64,000 nt of DNA, from contig CM047426.1 in the NCBI GenBank assembly GCA_026168455.1, forward strand, positions 4,271,501-4,335,500, written 5' to 3'. This document shows positions 39,001 to 42,000 of this stretch, in pieces; the first letter of the stretch is position 1; each line of letters starts with the position of its first letter. The translations under genes and the position numbers were made by a program. The DNA comes from Theocolax elegans. Lineage: Eukaryota; Arthropoda; Insecta; Hymenoptera; Cerocephalidae. The notes beneath the pieces are model-generated. The model was not told the origin of the DNA. It was given only the letters and a program-made list of their open reading frames with translations, and ran no database searches.

Positions 39001-42000
39001 AAGGAGATTATTGCAGTATCAAAATAACATAATAAAGGGTTTTTATTGTTTCTTATCGAAATCATTATTAACTGAAAGTAAGATTAAATATTTCTATTTA
39101 TTTGTTCTACTAAATATCACAACTAACAGTGTACATTAATGTAGTACGATTAAAGAGCAGTCTTACAATGCCAAAAACCATACAAATGATAAAAGACTCA
39201 TTAGTCGAAATTAAACGAGCGTGTTTTAAAATCATATAAAAATAATATTTTATGTTTAACAAAATTAATAAAAATCAGAATGATTAAACATAGATATTTA
39301 GAATCATACGAAAATGTGCCTAAACATGCAAAAAAAAACTTTGTCCTCAGAACGAATTGTACTCAAAGGTACTTATGTCAGAGCCAAATGTACACAGTGA
39401 CTTCAGCAGATTGGCACGATGGTTGACAGGTACCTCTGTAGGTCTTGTATTAGGAGGCGGTGGAGCAAGAGGGGCAGCTCACGTAGGTATGCTAAAAGCC
39501 ATCCACGAAGCTGGCATACCAATCGACATGGTTGGTGGTGTCAGCATTGGAGCTTTCATGGGTGCTCTATGGTGCATGGAGAAAAACATTACCAGCACTA
39601 CGCAGAAGGCTCGTGAATGGTCTAAGGTACTTACTTGTACATGTATATATTTTTGTTTATTCTTCAGAAAAAGTAAAAACCTTTAATAAAATACTACATT
39701 TTATCATTCATCATCATCTATGACTTTTTTCACTGCTCTAATTGAGAGATGACAAAATGTAGTATTTTGTGGGAATATATTGAATATACTTACAACGAGA
39801 TTGATGTAACAAAAAAATATGTGAAAATTGTTTACCGCAGAAAATGACCCAATGGTGGAGGCAAATATTGGATCTCACATATCCAATGACATCGATGTTT
39901 TCCGGTAAAGATTTCAATAATACCATCCACGGCACATTCGGGGACGTGTATATCGAGGATTTGTGGCTTCCGTTTTTTACGATAACCACTGACATCACCG
40001 CTTCTTGTATGCGCACGCACACACACGGTCTGTACACAAGTTAAATCAACCATTGCTTATGAATTTTAAAAAACAAAAAATGATAAAAGAAAAAGAAGTA
40101 ATACGATACTTTCAAATCGCAAAGAGACTGTAAAATTATAATTTACCATCTCTATGTGTGTGTTTTAATCATCGATCTAAAAAAATTTAATACCCACGTT
40201 TCAATTACAAATATATACGTTTATTCATTTATTTATTAGTTTTCGCACTAATCTGTAGATGCATATTATTATCATATATATATACAGTTTTTTTTCTCTC
40301 TAAACATAGTCTGCTTTGAATAGCGGGAGTGAGCTGTGTGATCATAAATTATAAAATAAAATAAAAGAAAAAAAAGAAAAGAACAATGTTATTGACGTAC
40401 TCTCCGTTTGTATTATATATGGTTCAGTATTCACCAAAGTGGGAAGGCAGAATATGTATTGTCAATTTAAAAAAAAAAAATTTTTTTGTAACACGGTGCG
40501 AACAACATTATTTCAATTCACTAAATTCTATATGACCTTCCTGCTCTCTTTCGAAGCCTGATACAATAAGCCCAAATAAAAAGAGTAAAGGGCATAAGTC
40601 GCAGATTAGTGCAGCAGGAAGGAATTAACATATAAATATAGATAGATATATTATATATAAATATCATCGTGGGTTTAAATCCTCGTATCGTCACAAATAA
40701 GAAATGTAACAAACAAAATGAATTTTAAAAAAGTGTAATATGCTGAGGAGCGAAAGACAAATAGTGATTGCTTAATATAATGTGACGCACGTGTTTAGGA
40801 TCGCTTTGGCGGTACATACGTGCTTCGATGTCGTTGTCCGGTTATATGCCTCCCATGTGCGACCCAACCGATGGCCACCTTCTTCTCGACGGCGGGTACG
40901 TCAATAACCTTCCAGGTAATTTGACTTGTACAACACACTGACAGTTTATTGCTTATTCTCTTTTTTAAGGCTTCTATATCATTATTTATATGATTATGTA
41001 TGACTGTCGTTTATCGTTGCCCGAGTATACATACATACGTATATATATATATTATATAAACCAAATTTCATTGCACTTGTCATTTATTTTTATCTATATA
41101 TCTATTTTTTTTTATATAAATTTGTATGAATCTCTTTTATCTTCAACATAAGTAAAATTGCAAAATTCTGTACGATAAATATTAACATTTTTATTGTTTG
41201 ATTGTATGTTGTGTCATTGTGTAAGTACATATATATACATATGTGTGTGTGTGTATTGTTTTTCTTTGTCTCTTCTCAAGTAATGTGTACAAGTTGATTG
41301 CACAATCCGAAAAGAAAAAATGAACAGAAAAAGTATCACTGATGGCTAGAAGTATGCATTGATTATTGTTGATATGTTAATTAATTATAATCCAGTGAGT
41401 AAGAAGCTTGTGCAGTAAACGTGTTGAGCTTAAATGTCAAACTTTCATTTCAATGTAATGGAGCAAATGTCTTTAGAATATATACTTCGAGCCTTTTAGT
41501 GTAGTGTTTGAAAATTGAAAAAAAAGGATAAAATATATGTATCAGGCTCGCTCCCGTTGATAGAAAGATGCACTGTTCATATTTTATAAACAATTCAGTT
41601 TGCCTGAATCAGGCTTACTTTGGAAGTATATTCGAGCCAGCATGACCTTTGCCGGTGTCTTTCCACCGGTTTGTGATCCTATTGACGGGCATCTTTTGGT
41701 CGACGGGTGTTACGTTAACAATGTCCCAGGTATGCTTATTTTGTTTATGGGATTGTTGTTTTTATTTATTTTTCTTTTTTATCCGTTTTAACTACAAAAT
41801 GTAACGTTTAAATGAATTTTTTCTTTTGTGTATTTGCTAATTTTCCTTTGTAAATGTAGTGTTAACACAATAATTTTACAAAGATTGACTTTTAAATTCT
41901 TGTAAATGTTGATGTATATTGTTCTACACAATATATTTTTAGTGTATATACTAATTGCATTGTAACAGCACTGATTAATAAGAAGCTTAAGAATCCAAAA

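Follow-up and report, generated by a model that had tools for sequence, protein, structure and literature searches.

In Theocolax elegans, the gene for the lipase Swiss cheese (sws/NTE), which protects nerves, carries two tandem homologous exons, A (40799-40915) and B (41613-41729), which very probably serve as alternatives, with each transcript predicted to take one to the exclusion of the other. In the mechanism that we propose, A or B would be spliced between the exon ending at 40027 and the exon starting at 42591, creating two full-length enzymes that share all domains and differ in the residues around the catalytic Asp. The likeliest course is that each transcript includes a single exon of the pair, which would exchange the segment up to the patatin Asp motif. 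This swap may tune the acyl or leaving-group pocket, and hence the preference for lipid or inhibitor.

The gene lies on the + strand of the window, meaning the whole stretch of 64,000 nucleotides that was analysed, and was assembled exon by exon over 34451-44876, plus a short first coding exon at 33003-33017. This probable first exon was placed by pattern match with a presumed splice at donor gtgatt, and the MSMME that it encodes is also the N-terminus of the Nasonia protein (P0002). The exon at 34451-35272 encodes the N-terminal region and, as judged from whole-protein domains, the first cNMP-like region, and is followed by coding exons at 35362-35675, 35758-36121, 37125-37418, 37499-37878, 38037-38199 and 38582-38962. 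The next exon, 39351-39626, lies in the Patatin domain and contains GGGGARG and GVSIG, the latter with the putative nucleophile Ser, while the exon at 39841-40027, with donor CACG/gtctgt, is the shared exon on the 5′ side of the pair. On the 3′ side, the shared exon at 42591-42911, with acceptor aaaaag/CT, leads to 43900-44189 and to the last coding exon, 44721-44876, which carries the stop. By eye, both shared sites appear weak (CACG/gtctgt at 40027 and acaaacacaaaaag/CT at 42591). Isoform A matches PF24179 (NTE_Ploop) at 231.8 bits, PF00027 (cNMP) over three stretches and PF01734 (Patatin) at 99 bits, which bears out the original prediction that the gene is sws/NTE. A 209-aa patatin fragment containing B matches PF01734 at 39.4 bits, a score for a fragment of different length that is not comparable with that of isoform A. 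The nearest full-length proteins in our set are those of Phymastichus (P0127, 88.9% identity), Nasonia (P0002, 88.8%) and Ceratosolen (P0112, 87.4%), which suggests a chalcid-like wasp. We take the GVSIG Ser and the DG-motif Asp to be the catalytic dyad of NTE, with the putative dyad motifs being GVSIG in the exon at 39351-39626 and DGG in A or DGC in B. A Ser-Asp pair is described as catalytic in NTE in the available text of PMC9025805.

The anatomy of the pair agrees with the original prediction in all but one respect. Exons A and B are each 117 nt long, are phase 1 on entry and exit, are open throughout and have GT-AG splice sites (ag/G...CCAG/gt), with exactly the coordinates and flanking exon edges (40027 upstream, 42591 downstream) that had been claimed, and both keep the catalytic Asp, as DGG in A and DGC in B. 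The number of differing residues had been put at about 14 of 39 and is in fact 12. The two exons are adjacent, homologous, of equal length and of equal reading-frame phase. Exon A encodes (G)SLWRYIRASMSLSGYMPPMCDPTDGHLLLDGGYVNNLP and exon B encodes (G)LLWKYIRASMTFAGVFPPVCDPIDGHLLVDGCYVNNVP, where SLSGY..LLDGGY..NNLP of A corresponds to TFAGV..LVDGCY..NNVP of B. Joined to the G that closes the exon at 39841-40027, they read GSLW... or GLLW..., and either exon gives an uninterrupted sws/NTE protein of the same length. They are identical at 27/39 amino acids and 73/117 nucleotides, with agreement at 28/39 first, 34/39 second and 11/39 third codon positions; as only 11/39 third positions are identical in a conserved protein, these positions are near saturation. 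The resemblance cannot credibly be put down to chance. When the window was searched in six frames with a profile of the segment, only these two copies were found, at 98.6 and 92.4 bits, scores that are partly produced by construction, with the window's own two segments being among the 75 rows of the profile. The next best match reached 5.8 bits, and across the 64 kb this search gave no third copy, of the C type seen in other animals, above noise.

The same picture holds for the genome and for known structures. The protein around the pair has four matches in the 658-Mb assembly, all at one locus and corresponding to the upstream exon, A, B and the downstream exon, in a search that scores best candidates only (4 of 4), and no second sws gene was found by it. 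At the DNA level, exon A and exon B each match themselves alone in the genome. A PDB sequence search with A and with B returned PlpD alone at E 1e-3, and both exons map onto one and the same uninterrupted stretch of this solved patatin-like protein (44.4 and 47.7 bits).

Several other features of the window are recorded here. Near-identical open stretches at 5376-5942 and 6847-7421, about 1.47 kb apart, appear charged and coiled-coil-like on the - strand by eye, and are a tandem duplication or an assembly artefact. Stretches of zinc-finger-like genes are near-identical at a spacing of about 2.5 kb (20161-21326 and 22681-23846; also 21772-21963 and 24151-24483). A run of DSQR/SQRD repeats is open on the - strand at 2937-3235, and a 289-aa open stretch at 19006-19875 (-) resembles what we take to be the RNase H or reverse-transcriptase end of a retrotransposon.

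Database proteins contain the two exons singly and together. Searches with isoform A, isoform B and an amphioxus C segment gave 162 proteins, of which one (P0001) was set aside and 161 were counted; the isoform searches contributed the best 120 of 1379 matches and 47 of 47, and the amphioxus search 15 of 15. The 161 NTE proteins listed comprise 62 with A only, 40 with B only, 3 with C only, 44 with A then B and 12 with C then A, or one copy in 105 and two copies in 56, where the units are database proteins and not reads. Because these include the best 120 of 1379 matches, in which two-copy proteins rank first, the counts are not frequencies. Alternative use of A and B, as originally predicted, is supported in related Hymenoptera, to the extent that database proteins can tell, by A-only and B-only proteins of equal length. 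The A-only and B-only proteins are both 1343 aa, and the residue position of the segment coincides, in Linepithema humile (P0071/P0139), Xylocopa sonorina (P0059/P0122) and Xylocopa violacea (P0062/P0125), while those of Cataglyphis niger (P0073/P0147) are both 1345 aa and share locus tag and segment position. Athalia rosae also has both an A-only and a B-only protein. The protein set aside, P0001, is an ENA translation of 2114 aa from outside the window with 30 A-type segment matches, 29 degenerate and 1 complete, mostly spaced every 67 residues; it is perhaps a minisatellite grown from an A-type exon in some animal.

Strict exclusivity is challenged above all by the two-copy proteins. They would fit a gene whose transcripts usually include A and B together, for a protein 39 aa longer with two Asp segments, and in which single-exon forms are minor. 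The 44 A-then-B proteins of the 161 speak for this, with their copies exactly 39 residues apart in 38 and with residues added or missing in the other 6, as does Temnothorax longispinosus, where X1 (both exons, 1376 aa) exceeds X4 (B, 1337 aa) by exactly 39 aa. Since 117 is divisible by 3, the reading frame is kept with both exons, so that exclusivity is not enforced by frame. Nor is any other simple enforcing device found, with the intron between A and B being 697 nt long and the sites GT-AG. Such a device is not a required feature of mutually exclusive exons; in a human survey, a distance of <50 nt applied to 9%, a U2/U12 mismatch to 0.79% and a frameshift to 60% of clusters (PMC5740500, available text). 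Against habitual joint inclusion, which we regard as quite improbable, stands the alignment of A and B to one PlpD stretch: the fold has room for one, and two copies in it are unlikely to give a normal enzyme. The 105 one-copy proteins also argue against it, and many two-copy proteins may be the output of gene predictors. Several A-then-B proteins are named as predicted isoforms (e.g. Nasonia X2, Temnothorax longispinosus X1). A predicted model of the two-copy protein P0033 is of low confidence over the duplicated segment, with a mean pLDDT of 37-48 per ten residues at 841-910, a weak point against joint inclusion, given that 931-980 is also at 40-52 and that the two-copy form alone was folded. 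That either exon, B or A, is a non-functional remnant is exceedingly improbable: both are open with GT-AG sites, the catalytic Asp is retained, and B and A have mean pairwise identities of 0.757 and 0.902, respectively, across this wasp and 25 arthropods from the database. Anatomy and conservation led us to discard both chance and a relic exon as explanations.

A pair of this kind is present in many arthropods and, in reverse order, in some other animals. All 44 A-then-B proteins are arthropod by name and come from insects, a springtail, a barnacle, an ostracod, a centipede, ticks, a spider and a sea spider. All 12 C-then-A proteins, where the non-A copy comes first, are non-arthropod and come from rotifers, tapeworms, Trichuris, Ciona, hagfish and amphioxus; the copies are exactly 39 residues apart in 6 of these, and residues are added or missing between them in the others (P0046, P0083, P0091, P0094, P0117 and P0119). 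The C-only proteins are from trout (P0160) and amphioxus (P0161 and P0162). No mollusc, annelid, echinoderm or mammal is present among the names of the matches listed, nor any protein named as Drosophila. The claim of an old exon duplication in the original prediction is supported. Its further idea that different lineages kept different copies is not supported: 25 database arthropods and Theocolax elegans in the tree set have both; Diptera with both copies include Glossina and Anopheles, and a DGC copy is owned by chordates (hagfish P0043, trout P0160, amphioxus P0161/P0162). The wording of A had been likened to vertebrate NTE, which is right in kind, with A being identical to amphioxus A at 35/39 and to hagfish A at 34/39 residues. 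Between arthropod A and other A, mean pairwise identity is 0.841.

The residue after Asp-Gly divides the copies. In the tree set it is Gly in 38/38 A-type rows and in 0/37 B/C rows, the latter having Cys in 32, Val in 3 and Ala in 2. Across the 217 segments of the 161 proteins, DGG is found in 118/118 A-type segments, and the 99 non-A segments have DGC in 89, DGV in 4 and DGA in 3, with three broken segments reading DGT (2) and GSL (1). Bacterial NTE-like relatives (16 loci) have G in 8, C in 3, A in 3 and S in 2 at this position. As 3/16 carry Cys, this residue is tolerated there and is not odd in itself, and DGC as a motif unique to the animal second exon is ruled out.

Trees of the 39-residue segment were made from hand-picked rows, in sets of 76, 39, and 55 including 16 bacterial. 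In each, all A-type rows, among them those of arthropods, chordates, rotifers, tapeworms and Trichuris, are on one side of a branch, with support of 94/86 (76 rows), 95/89 (39 rows) and 98/95 (bacterial outgroups). A constraint that joins arthropod A and B costs 14.4 log units (p-AU 0.072) with 39 rows and 20.9 log units (p-AU 0.153) with 55 rows. On the segment sequences, a single old duplication appears to fit slightly better than independent ones, a modest edge. Both the shared branch side and the cost of the constraint stand against the idea that arthropods copied A downstream, giving B, that other animals copied it upstream, giving C, and that the Gly change is convergent. A is so conserved, however, that its grouping is in part to be expected under both readings, and an alignment of 39 columns is short. 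Independent duplications are quite possible, if somewhat short of probable: the constrained trees are not rejected at these p-AU values, and the reversed order (A-B vs C-A) and different middle of the two copies (S-I-A-G-V/I in B, T/S-Y-x-x-Y in C) favour separate origins. There is also precedent for convergence in tandem exon duplication between orthologous genes, the authors of one study finding common ancestry for 7 of 42 human events, all in genes with such events in the D. melanogaster orthologue too (PMC9741552, available text). The shared loss of Gly in B and C favours in turn a common origin of these two. Their relation is unsettled in the trees, where holding B and C together costs 3.0 log units (p-AU 0.325, 55 rows), and they also share a V before the Asp, which may be ancestral, since it is the commonest bacterial state (11/16). 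Extending the single old duplication, it could be imagined that two exons, a near-invariant DGG and a faster DGC, predate the bilaterians, that arthropods switched their order, that most animals including fishes have two isozymes with different pockets next to the catalytic Asp and that each copy in the wasp has its own inclusion-controlling stem, although we regard this combination as rather doubtful.

The 3′ part of each exon can pair with the intron just before it; the signal is strong for A and weak for B. Stem A is formed by an intronic element at 40388-40408 and an arm within exon A at 40888-40908, both on the + strand, where 20/21 positions are paired (probability 0.71-1.00, one mismatch) and the exon arm runs from the catalytic-Asp codon to the NN codons. 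Stem B, the weaker case, joins 41550-41571 to 41689-41710 on the + strand, with 20/22 paired and the exon arm reaching the catalytic-Asp codon. The elements emerged from pairing scans and folding, and the minimum-energy fold of 39841-42911 contains both stems. In 18 tests of exon tiles against three introns, the final 40 nt of A against the preceding intron gave z -8.2 and the final 40 nt of B against its own preceding intron z -5.2, while the remaining 16 gave z -1.5 at most. Among 1000 dinucleotide shuffles, 0 reached the A value and 2 reached the B value, so that stem B alone does not comfortably survive correction for 18 tests. Control tests (22, on 11 other sws exons) gave z -2.7 at most, with 2/60 shuffles as low. 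When the window was scanned in coarse 60-nt tiles, the end of B had its best partner in the stem B region, and for the end of A the tiles at 39421 and 60441-60461 slightly outscore the stem A region. At the DNA level, stem A is a 20/23 inverted match equalled by 0/1423 random window segments; stem B is not notable at this level and rests partly on G-U pairs. No shared docking partner for A and B was found in the 18 tests, and pairing between the three introns shows no excess, with 6, 20 and 18 of 20 shuffles reaching the observed energy.

It is hypothesized that these stems help choose the exon. The acceptor of each exon sits in the loop of its stem, which could keep the exon out until the stem opens. 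The pairing of an exon with its upstream intron is also the known layout of editing-complementary elements, and the stems may instead be substrates for A-to-I RNA editing, with the intronic arms acting as such elements and having no part in splicing control. The 20/21 pairing of stem A between exon and upstream intron is in keeping with this reading, which we consider unlikely; against it, an Adar paper names swiss cheese, in its available text, merely for a similar phenotype (PMC7020516). Duplication of exons with stem-loops has been proposed to produce mutually exclusive splicing, a model that, on the available text of PMC6071210, would fit an element and exon duplicated here as a unit.

In the available text of the papers that our literature searches found, we saw no discussion of the NTE exon pair, which the database proteins already embody. 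It is not discussed in the available text of PMC9025805, PMC2768749, PMC4195910, PMC11090517, PMC8781823, PMC7020516 or PMC9741552, and isoform, splicing and exon have zero mentions in the sws papers PMC4826977 and PMC13299251. Among broader papers, the main text of PMC9741552 names neither PNPLA nor patatin, that of PMC5740500 neither PNPLA nor esterase, that of PMC7954323 none of sws, swiss cheese, esterase, patatin and PNPLA, that of PMC3228551 none of sws, swiss cheese, esterase and CG2212, and that of PMC3923563 none of sws, swiss cheese and esterase. For Drosophila sws, two isoforms of 1425 aa each are described, in keeping with an exon swap that leaves the length unchanged as far as the available text of PMC9025805 goes, and this isoform pair is likely identical with the exon pair of the wasp. 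NTE/PNPLA6, whose fly counterpart is sws, is a disease gene in humans and the target in organophosphate-induced delayed neuropathy (PMC9025805, available text). Should a single gene produce two catalytic forms across animals, work on activity, inhibitors or rescue that uses one form captures half of the enzyme, and the strict Gly/non-Gly split after the catalytic Asp-Gly provides a simple, testable contrast.

The segment itself has clear bacterial counterparts. Bacterial NTE-like patatins (16 loci) and PlpD (5fqu) have the same segment, with an Asp-Gly-small residue motif and a final Pro, but the bacterial loci have one segment match per analysed stretch (about 1.5 kb each), in contrast to the pair in the wasp sws gene. 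On one Anammoxibacter contig (L001, L006), two NTE-like patatin stretches are separated by about 3.4 kb, and the motif reads DGS in one and DGC in the other. As an exon pair, A and B resemble the mutually exclusive homologous exons of Dscam, myosin heavy chain and tropomyosin, which are likewise adjacent, homologous and equal in length and phase, with wide conservation and alternative use in relatives. A survey of tandem homologous exons lists 9 events that affect catalytic sites (PMC7954323, available text). Unlike Dscam-type exons, the sws exon carries the catalytic Asp of a phospholipase, and the frame is kept if both copies are included. In contrast to docking-site and selector systems, where several selectors meet at one docking site, the sws stems are exon-autonomous.
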